This document shows, in pieces, positions 31,535 to 56,230 of a stretch of 64,000 nt of DNA. Within the stretch, counting starts at the first letter, position 1, and every line of letters begins with the position of its first letter. Both the position numbers and the translations under genes were made by a program. Origin of the DNA: a virus. The stretch is taken from the IMG/VR virus record IMGVR_UViG_3300023174_000038, positions 1-64,000 of that record. One strand, written 5' to 3'. A model generated the notes under the pieces. It made no database searches and was not told the DNA's origin. It was given only the letters and a program-made list of their open reading frames with translations.

Positions 31535-31543
31535 ACTGAGTCC

Positions 31544-32362: not shown

Positions 32363-32375
32363 AGTGTTGTATTTA
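32360..32375 (-). promoter_or_regulatory. Late-type promoter abutting the binding-protein start
   Basis: CATAAATAC followed after 6 nt by ATG; a TTGACA lies 13 nt further up (32388-32393) but with poor -10 spacing. There is no Shine-Dalgarno. Confidence 0.45.
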
Positions 32376-32432
32376 TGCAAGGTTATATGTCAATTGTTTT
32401 ACTAATAAAAAAGAGCCCCACAGAGCCCTTAG

Positions 32433-35541: not shown

Positions 35542-37209
35542 TTATTTATATTGTAGATTCACCAAATCTTGGTGTAGTTTATCGCTAGACAATTGACGCA
35601 AAACTCTTGCGTTGTCTACATTTACTTGATTTTTGTAAATCTCTTTTGGTGCATAGAACGGTGCATCTGCTAATGCAAATGAATATGCTTGATAGCCTGC
35701 AGGTTGTGTTGCCATTCTTGCTATATCAACACCGCCGGCTAATTCATTTGGCTGAACATTTCTATTCACTGTTTCTGTCTTTTGTTCTTGTGTATTTGTA
35801 TTTTGTACAATTGGTCTTTCTTCAATTGCATCATTCAATACTGAACGTGAACCCATTTTAATACCTTCATTCTGAGGTACTTCTATTTCAGGAGTAGTAG
35901 CATTACGACCCTGCGGTGATTGTAAACTATACATTTCAGTTGATCCAAATGAAACATTATTACTCATTGTATTATTAGGATCAGAAAATATAGTTTGAGT
36001 TGGTGAACGTAGTCCTCCAAGATTGATTACACTAGTCTGTGTAGTATTTACAATAGCAACAATAGATGATTGTGAGGATGTATTTATTTGTGTAGTTGAT
36101 GATCCAGTAGTTGTCATACTGCTAGTAACACTTTGTGCAGTTAGTGAACCAGCAACTGATTCTGCTTGTTCTCGTGCTTGCTGTGCATCTTTTGCGGCGG
36201 CTGACTCTGCTGCCTGAACAACTGCCTTAGCTTCATTGCCTATTCTAGTTTGGTTACTACTAATCATACTTAATACATTACCTAGACTAGGACCGGCTTT
36301 ACTATCATCTTTAGCAGATTTATTTTCACTAGGACGAGGCTGAGATCCTGCAGGAGGAGGATTTCCTGGCGGGGGAAGGGGCCCTGCTTGTTGAGAACCA
36401 TTAGGTGGGGGAGGACTACCTGGGGGAGGAGGTGGAGGTGCGCCATCTTCTGGTGGAGGTGGGGGAGGTGCATCCGCTACTGCTACTGGAGTAGGTGCTA
36501 ATTTAGCAAGAGCATCTGAGTAACCTCTACAACTAGGTGAGTATAATGGGTTAGTAGCACAAGGGTCAACACTATACTTCAAACTAAAATTTACATTAAT
36601 AATTTCAGGACCATATGGTCCAACCCAGTAGTTGTTGTCTCTTCCCACAAATCCATACTGAGCATTACCTAAATCAGGAGTAGCATATGCTGACTTAAAT
36701 GTTTCTGACCAATAGAACTGAGTCCAACCATATCTACGATTTACATCATAGTTGTATGCTTCTACTACCTTTGTGTTTGTGTTGTTGTATATGTTTACAT
36801 AAGCCTTTAGATAATCTTGTCTGCCATCATCCCATCCATTACCGTTCTTAGCAGTAAAGCCAAAGTTAAAACCATTCACTTGTAATCCTGTGCCACTATT
36901 AGGTAGCGCATTTTTAATAGCAACAGTTTGATTTAAGTCTGTTAGTCCATATGAAAAATTAATGACATTAGACCCTGCGCCCCAGGCGGCAACTCTGGGC
37001 AATGGACCACAATAACCAGGGCCGCCCGGCTCCCAACATGTAAGCTGTTGACCAATAGTACCGGCATTTTGCCATGTACTTGTAGTAGCTGTGGCATTAC
37101 TGGTAAAATTGACCAAATTACCAGTTGTTGTTACATCCTGACTATTAGAATATCTTATTGACAATAAGACCAAGAACAGCCCCAATGCCAATTTTCTTAT
37201 AAGTGTCAT
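35542..37209 (-). CDS. Secreted proline-rich protein, 555 aa
   Basis: Signal peptide (about 1-23, MTLIRKLALGLFLVLLSIRY then SNS) and a globular N-terminal domain rich in aromatic residues and Gly (GYGLTDLNQTV-type beta segments, YGWTQFYWSE). A poly-Pro/Gly linker follows at about 250-300, then an Ala/Ser/Thr/Gln-rich helix region with Asn and Thr repeats. The poly-Pro spacer suggests it crosses the periplasm or peptidoglycan. It overlaps the next secreted protein's frame by 65 nt. It may be an envelope-spanning structure or an adhesin; unrecognised. Confidence 0.75.
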   Translation of the reverse strand: MTLIRKLALGLFLVLLSIRYSNSQDVTTTGNLVNFTSNATATTSTWQNAGTIGQQLTCWEPGGPGYCGPLPRVAAWGAGSNVINFSYGLTDLNQTVAIKNALPNSGTGLQVNGFNFGFTAKNGNGWDDGRQDYLKAYVNIYNNTNTKVVEAYNYDVNRRYGWTQFYWSETFKSAYATPDLGNAQYGFVGRDNNYWVGPYGPEIINVNFSLKYSVDPCATNPLYSPSCRGYSDALAKLAPTPVAVADAPPPPPPEDGAPPPPPPGSPPPPNGSQQAGPLPPPGNPPPAGSQPRPSENKSAKDDSKAGPSLGNVLSMISSNQTRIGNEAKAVVQAAESAAAKDAQQAREQAESVAGSLTAQSVTSSMTTTGSSTTQINTSSQSSIVAIVNTTQTSVINLGGLRSPTQTIFSDPNNTMSNNVSFGSTEMYSLQSPQGRNATTPEIEVPQNEGIKMGSRSVLNDAIEERPIVQNTNTQEQKTETVNRNVQPNELAGGVDIARMATQPAGYQAYSFALADAPFYAPKEIYKNQVNVDNARVLRQLSSDKLHQDLVNLQYK

Positions 37210-38275
37210 CTATCTTTTCCTCATCCATTTTTGGAATCTTGTCTGGATTAGCTTCCCACTGTGCTTTAGCTTGCTCACCAATCTTACCTTCATATGGACA
37301 AGGTGTGCCGGCTGCTAACATAGCATCAAATACACGACGGTCTTGACACATAGTAGCAACAGCGGCTACTTTCATACCCATATCATATAGTGTCTTAGAT
37401 AACTTTAATCGTTCACAATTCATATCACGTATTGTTCCACCTGAACTTACACCAAACACTTGTGTTTGTACACTACCTGAACTTCCTGTTGAACAAAGGT
37501 CAGCATTACCACCTGATAACATAGAAGGAGCTACAGCAGTAGGTGGAGGTTGAATCACACGTTGGGTAATTTCAGTCTGATTAATATTCTTGTTAGTTAA
37601 TTCACCTTGTTGAATATTTGTATTAACTGAATTGTTTTGATTTATATTATTATTAGTGGAAGTACTAGTACTAGTTGATGTGTTAATATTACGGTTAGTC
37701 ATATCACCCGTATTAACATTGTTATTAGTAGCTGTACTTGTACTAACATTGTTATTGTTATTAGTAGCCGTACTTGCACTAACATTGTTGTTATTGTATG
37801 TCATCGTACCAGTATTTTCGTTCTTATTAATATTGGTATTATTACTTGTACTCGTACTAACATTGTTATTGTTATAAGTCATAGTACCAGTATTGACATT
37901 GTTATTATTATATGTCATTGTACCAGTATTTTCATTTTTATTAATATTTGTAACAGTTCCACTCTGAATATTATTGTTTGTGTTTACACTAGTGCTAGAA
38001 CTATTGTTATTATTAGTATTTGTACTAGTACTATTAACAGCACTGGTACTATTGCTATTGCTGTTACTGACTGTATTACTGTTTGAAGTAACCGTACTAG
38101 TGCTATTACTTGTACTGTTTGTATCAACTAAACTTTTGGAATCATACCCGCCTTGATTGATTAATGTACTTGTACCTGTGGTTGTACCACCGCTGGAACT
38201 TGATGTGGTAGTAGTTTGTGCTTGTGTAGTGAATGCCATACCCAGCAAGGCAACTATAGCGAGAATCTTTTTCAT
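37145..38275 (-). CDS. Secreted Asn/Thr/Ser-repeat protein
   Basis: A 376-aa precursor. I chose ATG 38275 (MKKILAIVALLGMAFTTQAQ), which is preceded by AGAGG about 12 nt upstream. Residues about 30-260 are repeats of TMTYNNNN, VSTSTATNNNN and NINKNENTG type, Asn-rich like curli or beta-solenoid amyloid repeats. The C-terminal 100 residues form a folded domain with Cys residues (MNCERLKLSKTLYDMGMKVA and MCQDRR) and end in a short hydrophobic helix (GAVLGLIVNKIF). It may be an exported surface or biofilm-like protein. A late motif AATAAATAC lies upstream. Confidence 0.7.
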   Translation of the reverse strand: MKKILAIVALLGMAFTTQAQTTTTSSSSGGTTTGTSTLINQGGYDSKSLVDTNSTSNSTSTVTSNSNTVSNSNSNSTSAVNSTSTNTNNNNSSSTSVNTNNNIQSGTVTNINKNENTGTMTYNNNNVNTGTMTYNNNNVSTSTSNNTNINKNENTGTMTYNNNNVSASTATNNNNNVSTSTATNNNVNTGDMTNRNINTSTSTSTSTNNNINQNNSVNTNIQQGELTNKNINQTEITQRVIQPPPTAVAPSMLSGGNADLCSTGSSGSVQTQVFGVSSGGTIRDMNCERLKLSKTLYDMGMKVAAVATMCQDRRVFDAMLAAGTPCPYEGKIGEQAKAQWEANPDKIPKMDEEKIDDTYKKIGIGAVLGLIVNKIF

Positions 38276-38347
38276 TTTTATTATCATCCTCTAGAGATAG
38301 TATTTATTTGCTTATTAGTTGAGAAATATCACACTTTATTAAATAGG

Positions 38348-38367
38348 AAAGGCTCCTAAGAGCCTTT
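38348..38367 (-). terminator. Rho-independent terminator after the tmRNA coding piece
   Basis: An 8-bp stem AAAGGCTC/GAGCCTTT with TTAG loop (minus), followed by CCTATTT. It is nearly identical to the hairpin at 27945-27966. Confidence 0.88.
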
Positions 38368-38564
38368 ACTGAGTTTCTGTTACGAGGTATGTCTTACCCT
38401 AGGCTGCGTTTAGGCTGCCAATGCGAACTGTGAGTCGTTTGCGTTTACTTTTTTTGCTTCTACGGCCGAGTTCCCCCAACCCTAACGGCTTCTGCTTTGC
38501 CGAGCGCCTAATCTTAACTACTATCCTGTCGGTCGATCCCAAGTCACCCCCATCATAAAAACAC

Positions 38565-38605
38565 AATACCAAAGTAAATTTACACGGAATACCAAAGTAA
38601 ATTTA
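38565..38605 (-). repeat. 18-bp direct repeat inside the tmRNA intervening segment
   Basis: AATACCAAAGTAAATTTA occurs at 38565-38582 and again at 38588-38605, 23 bp apart. It lies wholly in the segment removed during processing. It is A/T-rich and may be a processing signal or a homing footprint. Confidence 0.85.
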
Positions 38606-38681
38606 TGCTCTTATGGTGGAGGTGGGGAGAATTGAACTCCCGTGTCGCCAGTGTTTCCTAAGCAGGTTTACGCTGTTCTTA

Positions 38682-39314
38682 CTATTTAGTCAACCTACCC
38701 CTAGATAGATTGAATAAAGTAATTTTATCATCATCTGGTTTTAAATAAAAGTTAATTTGGGAATTATTATACCAATGTTTACCGTATGCATTACTATTCT
38801 TATTCTTTCTGTTGTCTCTCCATTCCGATGTAGGTATCCATCCGGATGGAATTTCATTTTTGTAGTACATTTTACGATTAACTAATTCAACTGACGATTT
38901 TTCTACACACCAAACTTTTCCAAAATTAGAGTTATTTTCTTTTTGTTGGTGCTTTCTTTCTTTAAAAGTTTTATTTCTCTTTTCCATTGCAGATTGGGTT
39001 TTTGACAACTTACTTGCTCGGGCTTGTTGTTCTTGATTTATCGCAAAATTAGTTTTAGTTTGAACATTTTTAAATGGATTAGGATGTAATTGTCTGCATT
39101 TTTTACCAGCTTCACTTTGTCTAATTTTTACTAATTCTTCTTTAGGACTTAATTTTGCTAAACCCTGCCATGCAACATAATCTTGCCAACGACCATATTC
39201 TTCGTATAACTTGCGATGTGCCTCTGCATGTTCATCAATAGATAATTCTATAAGGTTCCTAGGATCATCTGTCCCGCCTGCGTGTTTAGGAATAATATGG
39301 TGTTTATGGCTCAT
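38682..39314 (-). CDS. HNH homing-type endonuclease
   Basis: A 210-aa protein from ATG 39314 (MSHKHHIIPKHAGGTDDP). The HHIIPKHxGGxDDxxNL...HAEAH pattern is the HNH beta-beta-alpha-metal fold with its catalytic His and metal ligands. The Lys/Asn-rich C-terminal half ends in a DNA-binding-like region (WIPTSEWR, NAYGKHWYNN) reminiscent of phage homing endonucleases with NUMOD-type motifs. Its stop codon directly precedes the tmRNA acceptor piece. A late-type CATAAATAC lies 4 nt before the ATG. It probably spreads itself between phage genomes and may carry the tmRNA along. Confidence 0.85.
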   Translation of the reverse strand: MSHKHHIIPKHAGGTDDPRNLIELSIDEHAEAHRKLYEEYGRWQDYVAWQGLAKLSPKEELVKIRQSEAGKKCRQLHPNPFKNVQTKTNFAINQEQQARASKLSKTQSAMEKRNKTFKERKHQQKENNSNFGKVWCVEKSSVELVNRKMYYKNEIPSGWIPTSEWRDNRKNKNSNAYGKHWYNNSQINFYLKPDDDKITLFNLSRGRLTK

Positions 39315-39327
39315 GCAAGTATTTATG
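39312..39327 (-). promoter_or_regulatory. Late-type promoter abutting the HNH gene start
   Basis: The minus strand reads CATAAATACTTGCATG; no Shine-Dalgarno. Confidence 0.5.
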
Positions 39328-39381
39328 CCTGCCGCACCCCCGTCCAAGACACTTTTCTCTTTGCTTCATACAGCAATAACT

Positions 39382-42300
39382 TCAATTGTATTTAGTATTA
39401 AAATACTCTTTTAACCAAGGCCAATCATAACTTAGTCGTAATTTATCTAACTCACCATTGACTGATTCATAGTATTCTACAGCATGTTGAGCACCTTGTA
39501 TACTATATTGGGCATAGTCTCCTTCACCAACTGTTGTCCATACTTTCAATCTGTGTCTACTAATAGCACTATCATCTAATCGTAACTTAATAGCTTCACG
39601 GAAACTAGTGCGCCATGTACTAAACTCATCTGTATTATATTTTGCTACACCTGAATTAATCTCAACAACTTCATGCTCACTATCCAATGTAAAGTCTAGA
39701 CCTTTACCCATATTACCTAATGTAATCTGTTTATTGTATGCAATCATGGCTTGGTGACCATATACTAATCCATTAACAGGGTTACTTGCATAGAAGATAT
39801 AATGTTTAGGTACTTGTAATCTATCAGGTTGCCATGAGAAATCAAACTTACTATTGACTTTTAACTTAGCAAATACAGTAAACATCCAAGATGTTTGACT
39901 AGCAATTGCGGTTGCATGATAGGCAGCAACACGACCATTGACCCCATCAACTCTAACAACACGATTTTTCAGCCCTTTAGTCACGTTCAGTAAGTGTTCG
40001 TAGTTCTCGTCAGCTATGGCTTCACCGTTACTTAGGAAGACTATATCCAGCGGCTTTGACTGTCCCATCTTTGTTGATTTAGCAATATATGGATAATCAT
40101 ACAATTCTTTCTCAACATGATCGTTAGCTTCTTTGGGTACAACAATACGTGTGCCTCCCATATTCGTAATCAATATATTCTTAGATTCAATAGACCACAT
40201 ACTGATTGGTTCATCATTAATGTCTGGTGCGATTAAATTATCACTTGTAGTAAACACAGCATAAGGGAAGTTATAACTATGTTTTTTGAAATTCAAATGT
40301 GTATCAGCATCAGTAACAAAACTAGGGGCAGGCAAACGTTTTACTTTTTGATGCTGATTAAAGTTAATCTTCTCTATATTTTCTAGCTTATCCAAATCTT
40401 CTACAAGAATACGTAATTTGTTTACATTAATAAAGAATGTATCTCCAAACTTCTGTTTATCACTAGGGAATACATGTAACTGCTCCAATGAGAATGGATC
40501 ACATATATAAGTAAAGTCAAAGTTAGTGTAATCACATATTGAACTGCATACCCAAATGTAATGGTCCTTTTTAATGCCCAACTCATATAGCATATTCTTC
40601 AATGTAGTTAAGTAATCAGTTTCATACTTAATTGTATAAACGTTTTCACGTTTAGTCTTGCTTTCAATTAATGAAACAATATCATTAACTCCGTCATTAC
40701 CATAATCAATTAAGTAAACATCATACAAACAGTTACTAGCAACGGCACGTTTTGTTTTTACAAAGTTTAAGTTACTTAGGTGTTCAATAATTTTCACATA
40801 CTTTGTATCTTCCGCAAAGGTTTCTTTATTGACCATAAACGTACTACCCCAATGACTCCATTGTGTTCCAAACACATGAACCATTGTCATTTGCCACGGG
40901 TTAGGATAATAGTTAAAATCAAAGTTAGTGTAATCTAATTCGCTATTCAGTATCCAGCATAGTTCTGTAGTAGATTTATTGATACAGCGATTGATTGTGT
41001 CTACCCAACTGTGTAGATAACGTGTCTTTTGTAATGTAGGGAATTGTAACTTAAGCTGTTCAAATCTATTAGCTGATTCTTTATTACCTTTATCCACAAA
41101 GAAAGTATCAACTTGTTTGAATAACTTAGATAGATATTCTTCATCTAATTTTGTATTCTCAATAAAACTAATATCTCTATAACCTTTTTGCCACATCTTA
41201 CCGTTAACTAAGTAGGTTTGTGTTAACTCACTGTCAGGACTACCAAACGTATTAATATTAAATGCTTGTTCTTTAGTAGGTTTCCAACTAAAATCAAATT
41301 TAGTATAATTAATATTTTTACGTAATGCCCAAAATATTTCATTGCTATGTTGTTCTATTAATGCATCAAGTGTAGTTTCAATGTAATATTGAGGGTATTG
41401 AATAATACTATCTTCTGATAATAGTATATTTTCTAATAATACTATTTCTCCATCATTACCCGGTGTTATAAATTTAGGACCATCTTGCAAGTGAATATCT
41501 TCTAATATTGTACCAAATTGATAGATATAAGGAGGACTATATGGATCTGGGTGCCAACTAAAATCAAATATAGTTTTATCAAAACCTGCAGGTATGATCC
41601 AATTAGTAAAATTTTGTTTAAGTTTTGCTATAGGATAATCCATATATTTGACCTCAGTTGCGCCATTTGCAATATATCTTGGGCCACCTATCTTATCCCA
41701 TGTGTTAGGGAACTGATAGATATATGCAGGCTCAGTACTATCTGGATGCCAACTATAATCAAATTCTTCTATATTATCAGGTATATCCCAATTAGTTTTA
41801 TTAGGCAAATACTTTGATTTAATGATATCCATGTACTTTATGTTTGTATTTTCTGTACAGCCGGGAGCAGTAAACATAGGTCCATTTGTTTTTTGCCATT
41901 GTGTTCCAAATTGATAGAATAAAGGCTCATCATCTATATTTGGATGCCAGCTAAAATCAAACTCACTAGTATCTAGCCCTGCAGGTATAGACCAATGTGT
42001 CATATCTTGTTTAACTTTTGCTATAGGATAGTCTAAGTATTTTGTTTCTGTAGCACCCTCTACTGTAAATTTAGGTCCACCTGTTTGACTCCACGTACTA
42101 GGGAACTGATAGATATATGCAGGTTCTGTATCATCGGGGTGCCAACTCCAATCAAATGACGTTTGGTCTACATTACGTGGGATCAACCAATTTGTAAATC
42201 TCCATGCTACTACTTCTGCTTTAACAGCATCAATATATTTTAATTCTGTTGCACCAGGAACTATATAGCGAGGTCCCCCTGTCTTTTGATGTATAGTACC

Positions 42301-43524
42301 AAATTGATATATGTAAGGTGGGTCATGTGGATTAGGTTCCCAACTAAAATCAAAACTATTCTTTATAACATAAGGGGGTATTTCCCAATTGTCCGTGCAT
42401 GGTTTACGTGTAGCACGTTCTTCCATGTATTTGTATTCAGTTGCTCCTTCAACAACATATTGTATAGATATTTTATCTTCTGGCTTATTCCATTGATTGC
42501 CCCATGCATAGATATAGGGAGGACTCCACGGGTCAGGAACCCATGAATAATTTATCCCATCACTATTTTCTAAATGTTCAAATCGTGTACTGTTAGGTAA
42601 CAGTTTAGCTTTCATTGATTCATCATCAATAAACTTATATTCTGTTGCTCCTGGTACATGATATTCAACAGTTGGCATAATCTCTGCTGGATATTGCGTA
42701 TTACCAAATACATAAATAAATGCAGGTTCACGCGGATCAGGTCTCCAACTAAAATCAAAATTAAACTTATCTATAGAGTTCCATATTACCCACCTATCCC
42801 ATTCAGGTAATACAGCAACTGAGTTATCCATATACTTTCGGTCAGTAGCTCCTACACAATGATACTCTACTGTGGGTTTTAACTCAGCGGATATATATTT
42901 ATTACCCCAAGTATAGATATATGCGGGTTCACGTGGGTCAGGTCTCCAACTAAAATCAAAACTTGATTTATCTACCGCTTGTATTTCTATCCAGTTATCC
43001 CATTCAGGTATTAATTCTACTACCTCAGGCATGTATTTTACATTAGTTGCATCCTTGACATGATATTCTACATAATGTTTAATTTCAGTTGGATAGAATT
43101 TGCAACCCCATTTATATATGTAGGGCGGGTCATGTGGGTTTGGCTCCCAACTAAAATCAAACTTTAATTCATCAATTTTATCTAGCACCACCCAATTAGC
43201 ATTTTTTAAATTCTTTCTGAGTATAGGCTCAACATCAGCACGATATATAATTATGTCGCTATATCGGTGTGAGCATAGCCAAGTGCCACTATCTTTATTT
43301 TGTTTATTAGGCCATACATTGTTATGTTCACTTGTCCAAACTTCGTCATCGGGTAAAAAGTCAAAGTCCCAATCCCAATCAAAATTTGTATAATCACAAT
43401 ATTCATTGATTATCCAAAAATGGTCGGTGGTACATTGTTGTCTAGCATCGGCTAAATCAATTGCATGTTTTTCTCTGGGGTGGGCGTTGGGTTTACTACC
43501 GTAATAAAATACATCTCTAAGCAT
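39382..43524 (-). CDS. Repeat protein with about 14 FDFSW modules and C-terminal glycosyltransferase-like domain
   Basis: A 1380-aa protein. About 14 tandem modules of 60-90 residues carry the core FDFSW-x-PDP-x-x-P-x-YIY-x-FG, then a GATEyKYmD-like end. Early and late copies are more diverged (YTNFDWDWDFDF first; FDFNYYPNPW and FDFTYICDPF late). The last 230 residues (PLDIVFLSNGEAIADENYEH, RVDGVNGRVAAYHAT) resemble the fold start of the glycosyltransferase-like protein encoded at 50931-51884, and contain one more FDFSW copy. The repeats therefore look derived from a piece of that domain. It stands next to radical SAM enzymes. Function unknown; a glycan- or peptide-processing role is inferred. 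Confidence 0.75.
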   Translation of the reverse strand: MLRDVFYYGSKPNAHPREKHAIDLADARQQCTTDHFWIINEYCDYTNFDWDWDFDFLPDDEVWTSEHNNVWPNKQNKDSGTWLCSHRYSDIIIYRADVEPILRKNLKNANWVVLDKIDELKFDFSWEPNPHDPPYIYKWGCKFYPTEIKHYVEYHVKDATNVKYMPEVVELIPEWDNWIEIQAVDKSSFDFSWRPDPREPAYIYTWGNKYISAELKPTVEYHCVGATDRKYMDNSVAVLPEWDRWVIWNSIDKFNFDFSWRPDPREPAFIYVFGNTQYPAEIMPTVEYHVPGATEYKFIDDESMKAKLLPNSTRFEHLENSDGINYSWVPDPWSPPYIYAWGNQWNKPEDKISIQYVVEGATEYKYMEERATRKPCTDNWEIPPYVIKNSFDFSWEPNPHDPPYIYQFGTIHQKTGGPRYIVPGATELKYIDAVKAEVVAWRFTNWLIPRNVDQTSFDWSWHPDDTEPAYIYQFPSTWSQTGGPKFTVEGATETKYLDYPIAKVKQDMTHWSIPAGLDTSEFDFSWHPNIDDEPLFYQFGTQWQKTNGPMFTAPGCTENTNIKYMDIIKSKYLPNKTNWDIPDNIEEFDYSWHPDSTEPAYIYQFPNTWDKIGGPRYIANGATEVKYMDYPIAKLKQNFTNWIIPAGFDKTIFDFSWHPDPYSPPYIYQFGTILEDIHLQDGPKFITPGNDGEIVLLENILLSEDSIIQYPQYYIETTLDALIEQHSNEIFWALRKNINYTKFDFSWKPTKEQAFNINTFGSPDSELTQTYLVNGKMWQKGYRDISFIENTKLDEEYLSKLFKQVDTFFVDKGNKESANRFEQLKLQFPTLQKTRYLHSWVDTINRCINKSTTELCWILNSELDYTNFDFNYYPNPWQMTMVHVFGTQWSHWGSTFMVNKETFAEDTKYVKIIEHLSNLNFVKTKRAVASNCLYDVYLIDYGNDGVNDIVSLIESKTKRENVYTIKYETDYLTTLKNMLYELGIKKDHYIWVCSSICDYTNFDFTYICDPFSLEQLHVFPSDKQKFGDTFFINVNKLRILVEDLDKLENIEKINFNQHQKVKRLPAPSFVTDADTHLNFKKHSYNFPYAVFTTSDNLIAPDINDEPISMWSIESKNILITNMGGTRIVVPKEANDHVEKELYDYPYIAKSTKMGQSKPLDIVFLSNGEAIADENYEHLLNVTKGLKNRVVRVDGVNGRVAAYHATAIASQTSWMFTVFAKLKVNSKFDFSWQPDRLQVPKHYIFYASNPVNGLVYGHQAMIAYNKQITLGNMGKGLDFTLDSEHEVVEINSGVAKYNTDEFSTWRTSFREAIKLRLDDSAISRHRLKVWTTVGEGDYAQYSIQGAQHAVEYYESVNGELDKLRLSYDWPWLKEYFNTKYN

Positions 43525-43542: not shown

Positions 43543-45096
43543 TTATTTGTTATAATTATTTAATATATCAGATAGCCATGGTATATAATTTTCTAATTTA
43601 TGACCTCTAATGTCATCTAACCTACGGGTATCGTCAGCTAGCTTTGGTAACAGATGGCTATTATCTTTAGCAAACATATAGTTGATTAAACCACTATAGC
43701 TATGCCTAAATATATTACCCATTTCTAGTCCATATTTTTCATCTATTTCTTTGTAAAAAAATTCATATGCTTCTCGTATTTGATTTTTTACATTAACGGG
43801 TAGTACTTGTATACTCATGGGAGACGGGCCCTCTAGTACGTGATAGCTAGGCGTTTTTCTAATTCTTTTATAATTTTTTTCTATTAACCATTTAGAAATT
43901 TCTAAAAAATGATATACATTGAATATACTTATAGTAGTAGATATTGTACCATAAATAGATTTAGTTGGATTATTACCTAACACATCTAAATTTTGTTCTA
44001 GTGCATCCCAAGTACTTGGATATCTTAGATAGTATGCCAAATCCTCAATTGCATCTATACTGCATCCTATTCCTACGGATCTGAACTCTTCCCATAAGTT
44101 ATATAGCTTATTTGGTATAGCAAACATATTTGAATTGTAATCCAAATGAACACGATTGCTATGACCCATATCTATAATTTTTTGTAATAATTTAAAATGT
44201 ATTTTATTAATTGTAGGTTCGCCGCCGGTAAAATAATATCGGTCAATATAGGGAATTAGTTTTTCAATTTGATTCCAGAATTCATCCGATTCATACCATT
44301 CAAAATCCGAAGAATCAATGGTATAATTATTATTTTTTTTGATTACATTATACGTTTTTCCCCCATAAAAAGACATAGGAGCTGAGGAAGGCTTTTCTCC
44401 CTCGTATGACATGAAAACAAAATCGTCATACCACAGACTGCTATCGGTCGGGCCGCAATATCTACATTTTAAATTGCATAAATTTCCAAAACGAATATCA
44501 ATATATTTTATTGGAAACTTTTCTATATCTATACTTCCATCATTAGCAGTGTTATCAATGAATCCTGTATGTCCGTATGTATTAATACTGTGTAATCTTT
44601 TACTAGATAAACCGGTGTCTTCTTCTTTCCAACATAAATTACATGACGGATGTTTTTCTCCGCGCAACATACTTGCACGTAATTCTTTAAATACTGTGTT
44701 ATTTCGTGATTGATTTATATCAGTATTTTTAACGTTTAACATTTCTCCGTTCTCTATTAGTTTACCGTACGGGTAGTATATCTGTTGACAACAAATTCTT
44801 AAATCTCCATTTTGTTGTATGCCAGTAGAGACCCATGGTATTGGGCAAAACGTTGAATTTTTTGGAAGGTCCTGCATTTGAGGATTTATTTGATTCAGTC
44901 TTGTTTTTGCTAGCTCAATTGAAGCTTCTGAGCAATGAGGATTTTTCATACCTGCTACTATAACTTCTGATTCAACATCATGTGTTATCATAGCTGTTAT
45001 TAATTCAGGAAAATCTGTAATTGTAATAAGTTCAACTCGTTCATTAGAATCAAAACAGTTGTGAAGTTTATTAAACCAATATTCACTGGTATTCAT
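43543..45096 (-). CDS. Radical SAM enzyme with N-terminal twitch/SPASM-like domain (1)
   Basis: A 517-aa protein. Residues 1-75 are a helical N-terminal segment (ELITAMITHDVESEVIVAGM) similar in plan to that of the 774-aa enzyme. A Cys-rich twitch/SPASM-like domain follows (FCPIPWVSTGIQQNGDLRIC at 83-102, CNLCW near 152). The radical SAM core starts with CNLKCRYC (207-214), the [4Fe-4S] ligand motif. The N-terminal twitch order matches the family NCBI names N-terminal twitch rSAM. It cleaves SAM to a 5'-deoxyadenosyl radical; the substrate is unknown. It overlaps the next gene by 4 nt. Confidence 0.88.
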   Translation of the reverse strand: MNTSEYWFNKLHNCFDSNERVELITITDFPELITAMITHDVESEVIVAGMKNPHCSEASIELAKTRLNQINPQMQDLPKNSTFCPIPWVSTGIQQNGDLRICCQQIYYPYGKLIENGEMLNVKNTDINQSRNNTVFKELRASMLRGEKHPSCNLCWKEEDTGLSSKRLHSINTYGHTGFIDNTANDGSIDIEKFPIKYIDIRFGNLCNLKCRYCGPTDSSLWYDDFVFMSYEGEKPSSAPMSFYGGKTYNVIKKNNNYTIDSSDFEWYESDEFWNQIEKLIPYIDRYYFTGGEPTINKIHFKLLQKIIDMGHSNRVHLDYNSNMFAIPNKLYNLWEEFRSVGIGCSIDAIEDLAYYLRYPSTWDALEQNLDVLGNNPTKSIYGTISTTISIFNVYHFLEISKWLIEKNYKRIRKTPSYHVLEGPSPMSIQVLPVNVKNQIREAYEFFYKEIDEKYGLEMGNIFRHSYSGLINYMFAKDNSHLLPKLADDTRRLDDIRGHKLENYIPWLSDILNNYNK

Positions 45097-46403
45097 AGCC
45101 GTTCTCCTGTATGATGTTGTAACTCAGGAAAGGTTTTTTTGAAATCAGTATTTCTTTCTTTATCTAGTTTAATCAAATAACCCATATACCAGTTAACATC
45201 AAAGTCAACAGTTTCTTCTAATGCATTTTTAATTATACTTAACCTGTTATCAAATACATTTTTACAATCTTCCTGTAATTTTTGTGAAGATTTTAATGGT
45301 AATAATGTATTGTAATACCATTGCTCATACTCGGAAATTTTAATACGTAAATGTTCTTTCCATTCTTTACTAGCGGACCTTATTGAAAAGTACTCAGGAT
45401 ATAGTAAAACAATATTATGATAATCAGATTCCCAAATACTAGTGTTGTAAAACGTATGCGGGAAGAGGTCATTTACTAAAAAATATTCTAGTATATCTTT
45501 TATCCGATGTATATTCATCAGACTCCAGGTTGGAGTAATTACCCAATGACGATTACTTCCTGTTAAATTATCTTTTAATAGTTTAATATTTTTCAATATT
45601 TTATTTGCATCAGCTGGATAGCGTATGTAAAATAATCTATCCACATCAACTTCATCTAAACTTACTAATACACGTAATTTTTCCATGTGTTTCCAGTAAT
45701 CTAAAACGTCTGTTGATTTATAAGTCATTGTGGTTAAGTTAGTACTGTACACAAATTCTATTTCTCCTAATCTGTTTGATTCTTTAATATATTCTAGTAT
45801 TTCATAATGTTCAGGATGAAGTAAAGGTTCTCCACCAGCAAAATATATTTCTTCAACATTGTTTACTTGCGATTTTATAGTTTCAATGAAGCTTTCTTTA
45901 TGATTTTTACTGTTATTAAATTGATCCTCAGTATAATTAGGATCAATTGCCTTCATAATAGGTACCCATGAACTACTATACGTAGGATGGCACACTGTAC
46001 ATGCTAGATTACATAAATTGTTAAATCTGAAATCCCATTTCAAAAATTTCATACTACTCATTGTTCCATCTATAGCAGTATTATCTTCAATCAGTTCTTC
46101 ATAAAAATCTTTAAACCTATCATTAAAGCTTCGGCGTATTGTTGACGTACTTCCCCATTCTTCTTCTTTGTAGCATCTTGTACAATGTTTTGATTTTGTA
46201 TCGTTTAATATATCTCGTCTTAATTCTTTATAATTTTCATTGTTCCAAATATCTTGTATATTTTCTTTATACAAATTCCCCATACTGCCACCTAAACTGA
46301 TACAGCAGGGAAGTATATCTCCTGTTGGAACATTATGTATATGCATAAACGGAGCCATGCAAAATACTTTGCTTTCTTTAATGTGAAATGTTTTTTTAGT
46401 CAT
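45093..46403 (-). CDS. Radical SAM enzyme with N-terminal twitch/SPASM-like domain (2)
   Basis: A 436-aa protein from ATG 46403 (MTKKTFHIKESKVFCMAPFM); an earlier start would lie deep in the upstream gene. Twitch-type cysteines FCMAPF and ILPCC lie near 15-34, with GNLYKENIQDIWNNENYKEL, the classic SPASM linker, and CTRCYKEEEW at 74-83. The radical SAM core motif is CNLACTVC (131-138), with GGEP following (YFAGGEPLLH). It overlaps both neighbours by 4-8 nt. Substrate unknown; probably works in series with the four other rSAM enzymes. Confidence 0.88.
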   Translation of the reverse strand: MTKKTFHIKESKVFCMAPFMHIHNVPTGDILPCCISLGGSMGNLYKENIQDIWNNENYKELRRDILNDTKSKHCTRCYKEEEWGSTSTIRRSFNDRFKDFYEELIEDNTAIDGTMSSMKFLKWDFRFNNLCNLACTVCHPTYSSSWVPIMKAIDPNYTEDQFNNSKNHKESFIETIKSQVNNVEEIYFAGGEPLLHPEHYEILEYIKESNRLGEIEFVYSTNLTTMTYKSTDVLDYWKHMEKLRVLVSLDEVDVDRLFYIRYPADANKILKNIKLLKDNLTGSNRHWVITPTWSLMNIHRIKDILEYFLVNDLFPHTFYNTSIWESDYHNIVLLYPEYFSIRSASKEWKEHLRIKISEYEQWYYNTLLPLKSSQKLQEDCKNVFDNRLSIIKNALEETVDFDVNWYMGYLIKLDKERNTDFKKTFPELQHHTGERL

Positions 46404-48720
46404 TTGAAATTTTAAAAACTTTTTTTGATTTATTTCTATACTGTTCGTGTACCGTTTCTTTTGTTTGAATTTCAGATGATATCCAATCTTTAATATTACC
46501 TGTTTCTTCAAAAACACCATCAAAACTATAATTAACCTTTTCTCTTTCCAATCGGTATGTTTCTTTTAAGTGCGGAGTTACTGTATCATGTACAAATTTA
46601 TGTGTCAACTTTATATTATAGTTGCCATTAGAGTCTATCTCAAACGTTAGATCAGAGTCGTACATTCTAGAAATATAATCACCAAACGTATTAAAGTCAG
46701 TTTCTGCATTGCACTTAAATGTAAATTTAAAAGCTCCAAAGTACGTGTGTATAACATATAGCAAAGCAAAATATTCGTTAGTTATACTAGCAAAAAACGT
46801 GTTATCTGTGTTTCTATTCAAGTTAACATATTGGTCATATGTTATATAGTCTGTTACATTTTTAGTACCAGTAAAAGTATAAAAATCTTGTATATTGTGA
46901 TATCGTTGAGCATTAATCATAGCAGAATCAGAATAATAATTGATTATATCTAACCACACATGGTTTAATTTTATTCTTAAAAATCTATGCATAGCAGTAT
47001 TATTATCAGTATGCCATGAGTTAAATAAATTGTTATCGTAGGGTTTCTCAATCCAATTCATTCCATAATCTTTCCAATTAGTATCCCAGTGTGCAATACT
47101 TTGGGGCGGTGATGCTCCAAAGCCTGGACTTATATTATCAATCCAATTTCTACAATTGAATAGTAATTGAAAACTATGTAAGCAGTCGATTGGTTCTTCT
47201 GTGGGGAATCCTACCATCCAATTTATGTGAACAAACATCCCCGACGCTTTAGAATCTTTAAGATTATTTTCTACTTCCCATATGTCAATCTTCTTACGCA
47301 TATCATTAAGAACTTTTTGACTTCCTGATTCTACCCCATAGCTCAGACATGTGCATCCACTATCTGTAACCTTTTGTAAGAATTCAGCAGTCATTCTTCC
47401 ATCACATCTTGCGTAAGAGTTCCAATGTATTTTAATATTTCTTTCTAATATTAGATCAACCAGTTTTTGGAAATTTTTTAAATTTCCATTAACTAAACTA
47501 TCAACAAACCAAAATCTACTAACACCTAAATTATTTTGTTGGTATTCTATTTCATCTACTACTCTTTCCGGAGTCATTGATCTAAATTTCCAGAAATGTG
47601 TTTCAGCGCAAAAACTACAGTCTGCTACACACCCTCTAGACGTTTCAATGCTAACCCCGTAGCTGTGTTCGTAGTTGCTAAAATTGTAATCAGAATAGTC
47701 CGGATACGGGTATACGTCTAAATCTAATTTACTATTTACCGTCCCTATAGTTTGACTGCTACCAATATCGGTATCATCAGTTAACTCTTCCAAAAATTTT
47801 ACAAAATTTTCTTCAGCCTCTCCTATAAATTTGTAATTTATAAGAGTTGTTAATAAATGTCCGTTGCTAATAGCACCGGGACCTCCTACCACGATACATA
47901 CATCGGGCATCATATATCTTAATTCCCGTATTAGATATAGACTAGCATGGATGTTTGTATCATATAAACTAAATCCAACGACCTTGGGATTAGATTGAAG
48001 AATATTAAATAATGTTCTATCAAATACGTCCTTCAAGTCGGGCAATATAAATTCACTAAAACTTTCCGAGCTATTCCAATAAAAATATCTATTTGATGCC
48101 CAGTAGTCAATTCCGGTGGTATCATGAAGATGATGGAAAGATTCTATATTAAGATCGTACACTCTAACACTATAATCTAAATGTCTCAATAATCCTGTTA
48201 GTTTGGCGAGGTTGTAAGGTGGAAATAGTTTTCCCCAAGCTGGCGCTACTACAAGTCCAATTCTAAATTTAGAAGTGTCTGCCCATTCAACTTCTTTATG
48301 GATATATCCGGAATCTACGGTAGGTTGTTCATCTCCTAAATGTGATATTGCATGACTTAGATTTGAATCTTTTTTAAGTATATGATTTAGGATAATTTGA
48401 TCCCGATCACCGACAACCATCTTTGTTGCCTCTTCCTCTTGTTTTGCAATATCATCCGACATTAGTGTTATTCTTTGTCGTCTGTCTCTTTCACTCCAAA
48501 ATCTAGGATTATCAATTTCGGGAAATCTTAATATTGCAATTTCAATAAATGCTTTATCAATTTTAGAACTAACCGCGGCAGCCTCTACGACAGACGCCAT
48601 TGTGTCCCATTTGATCATATTTTCTAATATATAAGTTGGGCATCCTCGTGTGGATGCAACATTAATTCTTTCTAAATGATCCGCATCTTTTAGTCTTTCT
48701 TCAAAGTTTATTTTTTTCAT
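46396..48720 (-). CDS. B12-binding radical SAM enzyme
   Basis: A 774-aa protein with three parts. A helical N-terminal region (1-130, LENMIKWDTMASVVEAAAVS) may be protein-binding. A Rossmann-like cobalamin-binding-type domain follows at about 150-320 (LVVAPAWGKLFPPYNLAKL, then VVGFSLYDTNIHASLYL and IVVGGPGAIS), lacking the DxHxxG base-off motif. A radical SAM core begins ETSRGCVADCSFC (364-371) and includes NWMVGFPTEEP. Such BchE-type enzymes perform C-methylation, ring closure or other radical chemistry. The last 200 residues are unique. It overlaps the next rSAM gene. Confidence 0.88.
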   Translation of the reverse strand: MKKINFEERLKDADHLERINVASTRGCPTYILENMIKWDTMASVVEAAAVSSKIDKAFIEIAILRFPEIDNPRFWSERDRRQRITLMSDDIAKQEEEATKMVVGDRDQIILNHILKKDSNLSHAISHLGDEQPTVDSGYIHKEVEWADTSKFRIGLVVAPAWGKLFPPYNLAKLTGLLRHLDYSVRVYDLNIESFHHLHDTTGIDYWASNRYFYWNSSESFSEFILPDLKDVFDRTLFNILQSNPKVVGFSLYDTNIHASLYLIRELRYMMPDVCIVVGGPGAISNGHLLTTLINYKFIGEAEENFVKFLEELTDDTDIGSSQTIGTVNSKLDLDVYPYPDYSDYNFSNYEHSYGVSIETSRGCVADCSFCAETHFWKFRSMTPERVVDEIEYQQNNLGVSRFWFVDSLVNGNLKNFQKLVDLILERNIKIHWNSYARCDGRMTAEFLQKVTDSGCTCLSYGVESGSQKVLNDMRKKIDIWEVENNLKDSKASGMFVHINWMVGFPTEEPIDCLHSFQLLFNCRNWIDNISPGFGASPPQSIAHWDTNWKDYGMNWIEKPYDNNLFNSWHTDNNTAMHRFLRIKLNHVWLDIINYYSDSAMINAQRYHNIQDFYTFTGTKNVTDYITYDQYVNLNRNTDNTFFASITNEYFALLYVIHTYFGAFKFTFKCNAETDFNTFGDYISRMYDSDLTFEIDSNGNYNIKLTHKFVHDTVTPHLKETYRLEREKVNYSFDGVFEETGNIKDWISSEIQTKETVHEQYRNKSKKVFKISND

Positions 48721-49973
48721 TATGTTTGATTTTTAAATAATTCAAGTTGTTGCTCAGTATACTGAACTACTTCTCCTGGATTTTGCATCCCTCGTATTGG
48801 AACAAGACTTACAACACCTTTAACTCTTCCATTTGCACCCGGTCTGTTTAATAAATCTAAATTTAATATTTTCTCTTTTAATTTTAATGCTCTATCTATA
48901 TATTTAGGAGGAGCCATTAATTTTACTTCTAACCAATGGTCATCGTCATGTTCATCAAAATGTTCGCATATTACTTTAATATTTTTAACAAATCTATCTT
49001 CATCATTGTATTCTGTTAAGCCGTCAAAATGAGCACTTAATAATATGCTATTCATATATTTTGCTAGTTCCCCCCAGTATTTATGATCTCTGGTTCCATT
49101 ACTAGTTACCATAGTCCATTGGTTTTTACCTTTAAGATACTTAATAAAATCTAAAAAGTTAGGATGTAACGTAGGCTCACCGCCGCCAAAGTTCCATCTG
49201 ATGGTTTTATTATGGGCCCATTCTTCAATAATCTTATCAGCAGTGCTTATCAATAAGTCATAATCTTTATGGGTATCAGTTTTATTATGCACTCCTGGCC
49301 AGCAATAGGAACAATCATAATTACATTTTCTGCTAAGATCCCATAAAATTTGATAGGGCATAGAATAATTCAATTCAACTGCAACTGGATCACTTATATT
49401 ATCAACATAATCATTTTCAGTACGGTCTCGCCCTTGCCATCCTTCATTGTTAACAGCAAGCGTTGTCCTATGCATTTTAGTTTTGACTTTGCTTAATACA
49501 ACATCAGCACCGCAGCTACATGAATTCCACGGACATACAAACCACTCTTTAGACAAAGAAAAACTTTCATTTATATTGCCCAAAAACCCAGGTATATTAT
49601 TTTTATTTTCTTCTGTTACTGGGATTATTTTTTTATATGCCTTGCCATTCTTTTTAAATTCTGATTCTAATTTTAAAAATTCTTCGCCTGTATGCCACCA
49701 CTCAGATGGAATATTTTTTCCAAATTTATCAATCTTAGAGAATAACAATTCTTTCCAATTGTCATGATTAAAACGGTCTATGAATGAACTAGCTGTATTA
49801 CATACCCAAATGTTGCCGTCAAAGTCAATATATAAATTTTGAACTCCGGCGCTACATTTCCAATTTTGCCAATAATTATATCTGTTTGCAATTGCTTCGT
49901 CAACCGAAACTCTTATAAATTTTCCATCATCATCATATATTCTTAATTGCTTGTTGTTGTTAATATTATCCAT
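48720..49973 (-). CDS. Radical SAM enzyme with twitch-like cysteines before the core (3)
   Basis: A 417-aa protein. Near the N-terminus NWKCSAGVQNLYIDFDGNIW (residues 38-57) and later FLGNINESF, CPWN and CSCGAD (130-156) match the C-terminal auxiliary domain of the neighbouring 319-aa enzyme. The radical SAM core follows with CNYDCSYC (217-224), and GGGEPTLHP is the SAM-binding motif. The auxiliary domain is thus before the core here and after it in the neighbour. It overlaps the 774-aa gene at a single base. Substrate unknown. Confidence 0.88.
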   Translation of the reverse strand: MDNINNNKQLRIYDDDGKFIRVSVDEAIANRYNYWQNWKCSAGVQNLYIDFDGNIWVCNTASSFIDRFNHDNWKELLFSKIDKFGKNIPSEWWHTGEEFLKLESEFKKNGKAYKKIIPVTEENKNNIPGFLGNINESFSLSKEWFVCPWNSCSCGADVVLSKVKTKMHRTTLAVNNEGWQGRDRTENDYVDNISDPVAVELNYSMPYQILWDLSRKCNYDCSYCWPGVHNKTDTHKDYDLLISTADKIIEEWAHNKTIRWNFGGGEPTLHPNFLDFIKYLKGKNQWTMVTSNGTRDHKYWGELAKYMNSILLSAHFDGLTEYNDEDRFVKNIKVICEHFDEHDDDHWLEVKLMAPPKYIDRALKLKEKILNLDLLNRPGANGRVKGVVSLVPIRGMQNPGEVVQYTEQQLELFKNQT

Positions 49974-49977
49974 TATG

Positions 49978-50937
49978 TTACTTTATATCTAATTCTTTGG
50001 TGCTCATTATGTCAAAATTACAATGACACATAGTTTTATTACATAATACAGGTGTTTTTGGTACTTCAAAGGCTTCAAATATATTACCAATCTTTCCACC
50101 TACTCTACACCAACCACGATATATGTCGCCACCTAAGTCTACAATAATCTGCTCTGCACCGGCATAACAATTCCACCCACTCCAATCATTAGTCTTTTGA
50201 CTGATAAATCTATGTGCGCTAGAAACAACTTCTGTATTATCTTCTTTAATCATCTTCATGGCACCACGATAGTAATCAAATGATTTGGTATACTTAATGT
50301 GTTTAACAATCAACTCATGTTGTTTATCAAATATCTTCTTTTGAAACTCATCATAATCATACAATGTATCACCAAAATCATGTATCAACGGCTGTAATGC
50401 CATACTGATATTGCCTATACCCTTAACTTTATTAGCTACAGCATAGCAAAAATCAAACTTATCTGGACTCATCATAATGTTTACATGTGTACGTACATCA
50501 TCATGCAACAACTTTACTACTTCTACAAAGTGGTCAGCTTCTGCAAACTCAGGGTGAAAGCTTAAACATACATGGTCAAAGTATTGTTTATTATCTTCCC
50601 ACCAACGTAATGTTCTACTGCCGTTACTAATCAATCCTACTTTAGCACCTAATTCGGTGCAATGTTTACATATCTCTACAAAATGTTTGTATAGTGTTAC
50701 TTCACCACCGGTTAGTTCAAAGTAAACTTTACGCGGAGCAACTTGTTCTACTACACGTGTGATAAATTCTTTAACTTTATCTAGTTCAGGCCATTTAATA
50801 TCACCTGAATGAAGATTCTCTGGACAATAACTACATTCAAAGTTACAAGTATTACCCATACACCAATTGACTACAAACCATTCTTCATGTACAGGGTTAC
50901 TGTGTACTAACTTAATATAATTGTGTTCCATTACCAT
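49978..50937 (-). CDS. Radical SAM enzyme with C-terminal auxiliary cysteine domain (4)
   Basis: A 319-aa protein. The core motif CNFECSYC is at 31-38, followed by ELTGGEVTLYKHF. The C-terminal auxiliary domain (WNCYAGAEQIIVDLGGDIY, then GKIGNIFEAF and CNKTMCHC) likely binds a second iron-sulphur cluster. It overlaps the glycosyltransferase-like gene upstream by 7 nt. The adjacent enzyme carries the same auxiliary domain at the other end. Substrate unknown; it belongs to the rSAM/glycosyltransferase block. Confidence 0.88.
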   Translation of the reverse strand: MVMEHNYIKLVHSNPVHEEWFVVNWCMGNTCNFECSYCPENLHSGDIKWPELDKVKEFITRVVEQVAPRKVYFELTGGEVTLYKHFVEICKHCTELGAKVGLISNGSRTLRWWEDNKQYFDHVCLSFHPEFAEADHFVEVVKLLHDDVRTHVNIMMSPDKFDFCYAVANKVKGIGNISMALQPLIHDFGDTLYDYDEFQKKIFDKQHELIVKHIKYTKSFDYYRGAMKMIKEDNTEVVSSAHRFISQKTNDWSGWNCYAGAEQIIVDLGGDIYRGWCRVGGKIGNIFEAFEVPKTPVLCNKTMCHCNFDIMSTKELDIK

Positions 50938-51884
50938 CCTTCTATTTTTCTAATAACATCCATCTCTTTAACTAACGGTCCGAGATTATATTTATCAGAG
51001 CTATAGTGACGCTTGAAGAACTTGCTTTGTCCCCCGTCAAAGTGATGCATTGGCAAATCAAGTTTATCAGTTAATGCCGCACCTAATAATGCTGATTCAC
51101 GATCAGGATCTCTATGTAAATGTTCTTCCCATAATACAGTATAGTTATCAAACCATTGTACATTAGCAGGATCCCACTCAGTAAGCATAGTCATATATGT
51201 TCCAAGGCGGGCTCCATAGATAGCCCACTCACCGTTCTCTATATCACGACCGATGTTGTGCCAAATAGTTAAATTGTTTAAGTTACGACTAGCAACAGTT
51301 TCTTTTAGTGCATCAACTGTAGGTTTTGATCCACGGTCAAGAACCATTTTTACTCCTTCACGGAATCCAGCTCGCCACGCTTGAAACGGAGTATAATTAG
51401 GATAAGTAGTAGAGTAGCAGTCATACATTGTCCAATATAAGTTGTCTTTGCTGTCTAAACAAAAGTCAGCAATTCGTGAAACATCACCTTCAGTTTGATG
51501 CTCGTGTGTTTTCATTTCACGCACATAAGTTTTTGTCCAACTACTCATTCCACCATTGCCATAGCGTAGTCCATTGATGTTATTAATGGCTTTCCAACGA
51601 TATTGTGCTATCTTGTAGTTAGGATCTTTGTCAGTGAAGTCTAATTGTAGGTTGAAGAAACTTTCATCTGGCATGTTGTCACCGTCAATCAAAATGAAAC
51701 GTTCTGTGTCGCTTGCTTCACCTGCGGCTTTATGTGCGGCATCAGATCCCTTAACACTATCAACACGTTTGGCCCAAGGCACCATGTTTTTAATTTTGAG
51801 CCAAAATTCTTCTTTTTGTGGTTCATCATAACTGAGATAGATGCAGTCTAAGTCTGCTACATCAATAATATCATCAGAGTTCAT
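50931..51884 (-). CDS. Glycosyltransferase-like protein
   Basis: A 317-aa protein. IYLSYDEPQKEEFWLKIKNM, VDSVKGSDAAHKAAGEA and LIDGDNMPD (a DxD-like metal site) give the outline of a GT-A fold. The C-terminal half has WRAGFREGVKMVL, also seen at the end of the 1380-aa protein (WRTSFREAIKL). I recall similar proteins in cyanophages, usually annotated as hypothetical or glycosyltransferase. It may glycosylate a virion protein, DNA or a small molecule processed by the rSAM enzymes. Confidence 0.72.
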   Translation of the reverse strand: MNSDDIIDVADLDCIYLSYDEPQKEEFWLKIKNMVPWAKRVDSVKGSDAAHKAAGEASDTERFILIDGDNMPDESFFNLQLDFTDKDPNYKIAQYRWKAINNINGLRYGNGGMSSWTKTYVREMKTHEHQTEGDVSRIADFCLDSKDNLYWTMYDCYSTTYPNYTPFQAWRAGFREGVKMVLDRGSKPTVDALKETVASRNLNNLTIWHNIGRDIENGEWAIYGARLGTYMTMLTEWDPANVQWFDNYTVLWEEHLHRDPDRESALLGAALTDKLDLPMHHFDGGQSKFFKRHYSSDKYNLGPLVKEMDVIRKIEGW

Positions 51885-55048: not shown

Positions 55049-56230
55049 TTATCCTTTAATTGAAACAAATGCTTCTACTGTTCCAACACTGTCAGTAGTT
55101 TTGTTTGCTAGAGCACGACCAATTACATTAAATGATGTTGCTTCCCCGGCTTTTGCCGCACGTGCTATGCCGTTACCAGCACTAACTAAACGTTGACCTT
55201 TTTTAACTTTTCCAGTGACTTTAACTTGTACACGACCACCAACTGCTACTGCTGGGTGAGTTGAATCATTGCCGGCACCTGCATTCATTAGATAAGCCGC
55301 AGTATTTGATACAACACCAAATACATCTTCACTTAATTCATGTACTACTGCTGTGATTTCTGCATCACCGCCCAATTCAACTACTGTGCCTGCATCATAT
55401 TGAGAGTCTGCTTCAAACCGTTCAGCCAAGTCAGCGTATGTTGCATTTAATCTTGCTCCAACCCCTAATGTCCAAATACCTGAAATTGTTCCGCCGCCTG
55501 TAATAGCTGTAGTACTTATACTGCTAGGTTGTAATGTGCCAGTATATGTTGGCAAAAATAATGCTACATTAGCATTACCATAAGTACCAGTAGGATTGAA
55601 TGGTGTTCCGTTTGCATAATAATAGTTGTCTGTTTTAATACCTGAGGTGTAAATATTACCATTAGCTACAACCATAGTATTACCACCCAAGCCTCCGTTA
55701 TATGTCCATGTACCGTTCATTGTACCAGGCGTAATATTAGAACCTGTTGTAATATTTGATGTATTTAATGTAGCAACATTACCTACTGTAATGTTGGCAT
55801 TTGCAATTGTTGCATTAGCAGTAACGGTAGCTAAACGAACAGTAATTGTATCTCCAACTAATGCATTTACTGCTGTGATATTATTGGATTGTAGATTTCC
55901 AGTAACTGTAACTGATCCAAATGTTGTTGTACCTGTACCACCTGATTGTGCTAGAGTAATCCAAGAACTTGCAGTAGTAGTTCCGTCAGCAGGACATACA
56001 CATAGTGTATTTGCATTTGTGTTATACCATAATTGACCACGTAATGGATTTGCAGGTGGAGTTGTATCTGCAAAGTTTTCCATTGCATGAACAAAGTTAG
56101 TATCAAGTGATTGACCGTAACCGGCATAATTTCTGCCCGGTAAGCCCAATGATGTACTAGTTGTGTTTATAGTACCGTCAGCAATGGTTGTTAGTACTGT
56201 TCCATCACTCTTTACAATCGTATATGCCAT
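55049..56230 (-). CDS. Tail fibre-like protein, 393 aa
   Basis: A 393-aa protein. The N-terminus MAYTIVKSDGTVLTTIADGT and QSLDTNFVHAMENFADTTPP, then LWYNT, is common in phage tail-fibre adaptors. The centre is a beta-helix-like run of Asn/Thr/Val. The C-terminus (ATYADLAERFEADSQYDAGT, VVELGGDAEI) resembles fibre-tip/peptidase-G2-like domains found in phage receptor-binding proteins. Likely part of the fibre or baseplate. Preceded by GATAAATAA late-type motif. Confidence 0.78.
   Translation of the reverse strand: MAYTIVKSDGTVLTTIADGTINTTSTSLGLPGRNYAGYGQSLDTNFVHAMENFADTTPPANPLRGQLWYNTNANTLCVCPADGTTTASSWITLAQSGGTGTTTFGSVTVTGNLQSNNITAVNALVGDTITVRLATVTANATIANANITVGNVATLNTSNITTGSNITPGTMNGTWTYNGGLGGNTMVVANGNIYTSGIKTDNYYYANGTPFNPTGTYGNANVALFLPTYTGTLQPSSISTTAITGGGTISGIWTLGVGARLNATYADLAERFEADSQYDAGTVVELGGDAEITAVVHELSEDVFGVVSNTAAYLMNAGAGNDSTHPAVAVGGRVQVKVTGKVKKGQRLVSAGNGIARAAKAGEATSFNVIGRALANKTTDSVGTVEAFVSIKG

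Follow-up and report, generated by a model that had tools for sequence, protein, structure and literature searches.

A repeat protein family of large T4-like phages, apparently built from part of a GT-A glycosyltransferase domain

In glycosyltransferases of the GT-A fold, the second half of the domain usually contacts the acceptor. Metal-independent GT-A enzymes that lack DxD also exist, and in some of these a basic residue stands in place of the DxD motif and metal. The ruler of the WbdD system, in turn, is a coiled coil. Among phages, T4-like pelagimyophages and cyanomyophages carry a hypervariable host recognition cluster, in which tail fibres are mixed with cassettes of glycosyltransferase, sugar-enzyme, and radical SAM genes (PMC7029224). 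A phage carbamoyltransferase for 5-hydroxymethylcytosine has also been described; it sits with thymidylate synthase and belongs to DNA modification (PMC8670742). The gene analyzed here lies at the end of a cluster of the former kind.

The FDFSW repeat protein is a large protein of 1380 residues. It is encoded by an intact open reading frame with an ATG start at positions 39382-43524 of the window, which is the whole stretch of DNA analyzed (64,000 nucleotides) and is part of a phage record of 348,701 bases. This gene, like every other window feature given below, is on the minus strand. An iterated module profile recovers all 14 of the modules that a sequence-only reading had counted, with E values of 3e-7 to 2e-28, beginning at residues 34, 108, 173, 240, 310, 375, 444, 507, 574, 638, 728, 854, 987, and 1224. 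Nine of them form the array of short modules. An N-terminal module precedes this array, and a transitional module (l87), the long modules l125 and l134, and a copy within the C-terminal domain follow it. The FDFSWxPDPxxPxYIYxFG motif, which the same reading had assigned to all of them, is strict in only about 10 of the 14; the core of the first copy has diverged to FDWDWDF, that of the copy at 854 to FDFNYYPNP, and that of the copy at 987 to FDFTYICDP. The consensus drawn from 589 distinct short modules across the family reads ...W....ID...FDFSWhPDPtdPPYIYqFGnQW...Y.VPGATE.K; conservation reaches 100% for W, 99% for D and for P, and 98% for Y. With homologous modules set head to tail, and with whole modules gained and lost among relatives, the protein is a tandem-repeat protein.

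Structure prediction with AF2 indicates that the two ends of the protein differ from its middle. In a model of residues 1 to 440 (pLDDT 89), the N-terminal module (residues 1-104; 43213..43524), whose limits also follow from VIA-align and from its constant spacing, is weakly GT-A-like (best Z 5.5, 3.4 Å over 97 residues), and it is the only part of this model that matches nucleotidyl- or glycosyltransferase folds in VIA-align. It is followed by the array of nine short modules (residues 105-700; 41425..43212), delimited by profile, spacings, indels, AF2, and consensus. These modules have a period of 63-70 residues (about 66) and are predicted to be all-β, with a pLDDT of about 95. Foldseek finds no PDB match for them, which does not make theirs a new fold, and a search of PDB chains gives no sequence match to the protein.

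A second model, of residues 636 to 1380 (42 sequences, mean pLDDT 84.7), covers the remainder. Residues 804-932, 933-1065, and 1155-1300 each show the GT-A order β-α-β-α-β-β-β-α-β, and VIA-align places all three with the GT-A fold at Z scores of 9.8-12.2. The first long module, l125 (residues 804-932; 40729..41115), scores 10.7 against Aq1419 and about 10 against MobA. The second, l134 (residues 933-1065; 40330..40728), scores 9.8 against a β-1,4-galactosyltransferase and matches l125 in profile comparison at 1e-37. A linker region that is partly β in the predicted secondary structure (residues 1066-1154; 40063..40329) leads to the C-terminal GT-A-like domain and its helical tail (residues 1155-1380; 39382..40062). 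This domain contains the last FDFSW copy and aligns with B4GALNT1 (Z 12.2, 2.9 Å, 143 residues) and WrtF (Z about 10-11). The best Foldseek matches here are the tandem glycosyltransferase enzymes LH3 and K4CP. The GT-A fold predicted for both long modules and for the C-terminal domain bears out the glycosyltransferase likeness seen from the letters, and the C-terminal domain is indeed homologous to the neighboring protein (50931-51884; blastp 2e-11, family profile 2e-14) to which the sequence-only reading had likened it.

The short modules appear to be derived from part of a GT-A domain. Their strand order in the AF2 models is that of the long modules past the DxD position, and profile-profile comparison sets the short module over its full length against the second half of l125, in register (E 6e-12, 73 columns), from the strand preceding the DxD position through the TKYVK strand. 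The best of the shuffled, reversed, and unrelated control profiles reaches 0.016, and deletion of the FDFSW motif still leaves a match of 1e-5. Module l87 (residues 701-803; 41116..41424), defined by its profile matches, bridges the two kinds on this sequence evidence, with E values of 4e-16 to the short modules and 9e-27 to l125. Because the short module aligns over its full length with the second half of long GT-A modules, the idea that the array is a multiplied part of a GT-A domain is supported. The closest source would be the internal long modules, not the C-terminal domain from which the sequence-only reading had derived the repeats. A direct sequence link from the short module to the C-terminal domain is confined to the 21-column motif (E 2e-5), and since l125 matches the C-terminal domain no better (0.013) than controls do (0.006), the link between array and C-terminal domain rests on the common fold and the motif. 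The fold is ordinary and its use unusual, in that a piece of an enzyme domain has apparently become the unit of a repeat protein.

The C-terminal domain has lost the DxD motif. Its active-looking neighbor retains DGD, which in the blastp alignment is opposite FA and a gap in the C-terminal domain; the AKL of FAKL at this place is invariant in a family alignment of 42 relatives. By inspection, the DxD place reads NExCD in the N-terminal module, SELD in l125, and SxCD in l134, and SEL of l125 is invariant as well. A canonical DxD or equivalent acidic metal motif is thus lacking, by alignment in the C-terminal domain and by inspection in the other GT-A-like modules. This absence argues for pseudo-enzymes but, since metal-independent GT-A enzymes exist, falls short of proving that catalysis is lost.

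The array is old. Its modules are mutually 25-63% identical, whereas orthologous modules of close relatives are 72-97% identical to those of the repeat protein in L031, L001, and L003 and mostly 61-97% in L004 and L008. Most of the array therefore predates this clade and has been mostly stable within it, contrary to the earlier suggestion of a recent central expansion. The observation behind that suggestion, that central copies are the most alike, survives in a weak form: modules 6 and 8 are indeed the closest pair (63%), but modules 2 and 3 come next (55%). Other members of the family did expand recently: modules within one array reach 93-98% identity in L018, L021, L026, and L036, and in some relatives the recent growth went by blocks of four. 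The array has a dN/dS of 0.10-0.16 against six relatives, similar to that of other parts of the protein, and thus is under purifying selection and is functional rather than decaying.

The number of short modules differs among related phages. Complete relatives have from 1 (L153, 846 residues) to 30 (L067, 2784 residues) between fixed ends, against 9 in the window, and length differences between close relatives correspond to whole modules (-63 residues in L004; -67 and +68 in L002; -135 and -63 in L009). The longest arrays have a period of four modules. In that of L067, with a spacing of about 68-65-65-70 residues, modules four or five apart are often 74-87% identical, and the best pair is 88% identical. 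The arrays of L067, L070, L016, L021, and L032 repeat one set order of four module subtypes with this period. Because of this recurrence, expansion in these five went by blocks of about 269 residues; a block may be one superhelical turn.

A first scan of IMG/VR for relatives gave 74 loci, and a profile of the C-terminal 745 residues gives at least 594. No relatives were found in GenBank phages (INPHARED), in plasmids, or, for the two peptide patterns used there, in the bacterial and archaeal genomes scanned. T4-type gp23 and terminase are present in all six records of the family tested. The family is thus phage-only and occurs in large T4-like phages known from metagenomes alone. No Pfam family matches the protein, and text searches of the literature returned no paper on such a protein. 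PHROGs gives a single weak partial match (phrog_5929, E 0.0011, residues 784-850); a portal protein reading of this match was rejected, as the stretch is a predicted GT-A module. The architecture is strict. In complete relatives the module spacing runs 31 (lead), 74, n short modules, about 87, about 125, about 134, 225, and about 170 residues (tail); the lead (about 31) and the spacing of about 74 at the N-terminal module are constant in 48 of 51 relatives. In terms of the predicted structures, this is an N-terminal GT-A-like domain, 1-30 short modules, and fixed longer modules, three of them predicted GT-A.

In the window, the repeat gene is the last of a series that runs from a tail-fibre-like gene through a GT-A-like gene and five radical SAM genes. 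The tail-fibre-like protein (393 residues; 55049..56230), encoded at the cluster's opposite end, has PHROG matches to virion structural and tail fibre families and a Peptidase_G2-like C-terminus slightly under the Pfam cut-off. The GT-A-like gene (50931..51884) is the DGD-containing neighbor, a cassette gene found also in L004 and L018. The radical SAM genes (43543..50937), assigned by Pfam, lie directly upstream of the repeat gene; two have SPASM and one a B12-binding domain. They are variable members of the cassettes and not a fixed neighbor: among 108 other upstream proteins of relatives there are 32 radical SAM, 12 B12-binding, and 5 DegT proteins, along with several epimerases and sugar-nucleotide dehydrogenases (UDP-glucose/GDP-mannose dehydrogenase), methyltransferases, and aldolases. 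The usual neighbor is a NodU/CmcH-type carbamoyltransferase, which in 51 of 68 relatives immediately precedes the repeat gene, mostly with a gap of 8-10 bp, and is present somewhere in the upstream DNA examined in 59 of the 68. The phage record of the window has none, and thus this partner is not obligatory. The gp23 genes of the six records, the tail-fibre-like gene, and the variable cassettes together mark a host recognition cluster. Within this fast-changing cluster, whose products seem to make or decorate sugars, the repeat gene stands last and is among the few that are fixed.

Immediately downstream of the repeat gene is an HNH endonuclease frame (38682..39347; PF01844). In this T4-like jumbo phage it adjoins a permuted tmRNA gene of the betaproteobacterial type (38344-38717; RF01850, 91 bits, tag ANDSQFALAA), which suggests a betaproteobacterial host. 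Two proteins rich in N/T/S or proline, with signal-peptide-like starts (37145-38287 and 35542-37209), have genes that adjoin the repeat gene and are conserved in L001, L002, L004, and L048; they are possibly part of a surface structure. Positions 30257-32380 encode, as judged by eye, a dicarboxylate-symporter-like membrane protein (425 residues) and a periplasmic solute-binding-like protein (278 residues), with 91-95% identity in L001 and L002. In other jumbo phages a secreted-looking protein (MKKIAIATLL...TAQVRLTGK), porin-like by eye and of proteobacterial appearance, is encoded near the repeat gene (L017:15221-16102, L003:14378-15256). On the other side of the cluster, a frame of 2288 residues (57050-63916) has no Pfam or PHROG match.

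The reading that we favor, at a probability of about 0.5, is that the repeat protein is a multidomain pseudo-glycosyltransferase, a putative non-catalytic scaffold or acceptor-binding track for the tailoring of phage glycans. GT-A-like domains at the N and C termini would frame an array of truncated modules that is elastic in length. Every one of these short modules would have lost the N-terminal nucleotide-binding β-α-β-α half and kept the second half, in which the strand preceding the DxD position leads into the long, conserved loop with FDFSWxPDP and then into further strands. Since only the acceptor-facing half would be kept, the array would be suited to keep a glycan, or the carrier of one, beside a changing set of tailoring enzymes; the carbamoyltransferase, radical SAM, and sugar-nucleotide enzymes and the real glycosyltransferases of the adjoining cluster would build or decorate that glycan. 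The number of modules may set reach, avidity, or product length, perhaps as a length gauge. Inactivity of every module, binding of an acceptor, and the roles of scaffold and ruler are what we infer for the protein as a whole.

Three other explanations were considered, here in order of decreasing probability. The protein could be an active, metal-independent multidomain glycosyltransferase whose array serves substrate channelling or processivity. This is possible but on the unlikely side: the nearest folds are those of real transferases (B4GALNT1, WrtF, K4CP, and LH3), the K of FAKL and the SEL of l125 are invariant, and the gene cluster is glycan-like, yet the C-terminal domain lacks DxD at the aligned position, and the canonical motif is missing from each of the several GT-A-like domains of the chain (by inspection for those other than the C-terminal one). 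We find it doubtful that the protein is a virion or tail-fibre component, with the array as a variable-length spacer whose modules bind host surface sugars and with a cluster that modifies the protein or the host surface. GT-A-like domains at both ends, the lack of any fibre-family match in Pfam or PHROG, and a tight coupling that is to the carbamoyltransferase gene and not to structural genes speak against a tail role. In its favor one could cite the tail-fibre-like gene that starts the cluster, the suitability of a variable array as a spacer, and the hypervariable host-recognition clusters of related T4-like phages, where tail fibres occur together with cassettes of glycosyltransferase and radical SAM genes (PMC7029224).

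Least of all, and very improbably, the FDFSW array would be a polypeptide substrate of the adjoining radical SAM/SPASM enzymes, its repeats crosslinked or otherwise modified. The window does have five radical SAM genes directly upstream, SPASM occurs in two of these, and D, W, P, and Y are invariant in each module. However, the radical SAM genes come and go in the cluster and are not the fixed neighbor, and the modules are predicted with high confidence to be folded; their match to half of a GT-A domain gives a structural reason for the conserved residues.

The repeat protein and its relatives provide a natural series of 1-30 short modules, nine in the window, in a protein apparently built from an enzyme fragment. 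GT-A-like long modules of the same family are still in the chain, so the passage from an enzyme to a repeat scaffold can be traced. More tentatively, and as a possibility rather than an expectation, the protein might represent a novel class of repeat protein whose unit would be one GT-A half, in which an acceptor-binding track gains or loses units singly or in fours and gives phage glycans a tunable length gauge. This is a large unannotated phage family, and a common one (at least 594 loci), that can now be named, having no Pfam entry and the one weak partial PHROGs match. Its tie to a carbamoyltransferase and sugar-tailoring cassette offers a handle on the products of T4-like hypervariable host recognition clusters.

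Several known systems share features with this one. The repeat-gene cluster is like that of pelagimyophages and cyanomyophages in belonging to T4-like phages and in its mixture of tail fibres with glycosyltransferase, sugar-enzyme, and radical SAM cassettes; in contrast, the available text on the pelagimyophage cluster gives no match for carbamoyl and contains no such repeat protein (PMC7029224). The usual partner of the repeat gene and the carbamoyltransferase for 5-hydroxymethylcytosine are both phage-borne PF02543/PF16861 proteins. The former, however, has sugar-nucleotide and radical SAM genes as neighbors, not thymidylate synthase, and thus resembles the "unmodified" contigs of that study, where glycosyltransferases flank the enzyme (PMC8670742). 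The likeness to the WbdD-type O-antigen chain-length ruler (PMC3482155) is an analogy only, in that the length of a part would set the length of a glycan; the ruler in the repeat protein would be a β repeat array. A further group is that of the GT-A enzymes B4GALNT1, WrtF, K4CP chondroitin polymerase, and LH3, which are like the long modules and C-terminal domain in predicted fold; LH3 and K4CP also have tandem GT-A domains in one chain, as here. Unlike these enzymes, the repeat protein lacks a canonical DxD, most of its modules lack the nucleotide-binding half, and half a domain is present in 1-30 copies.
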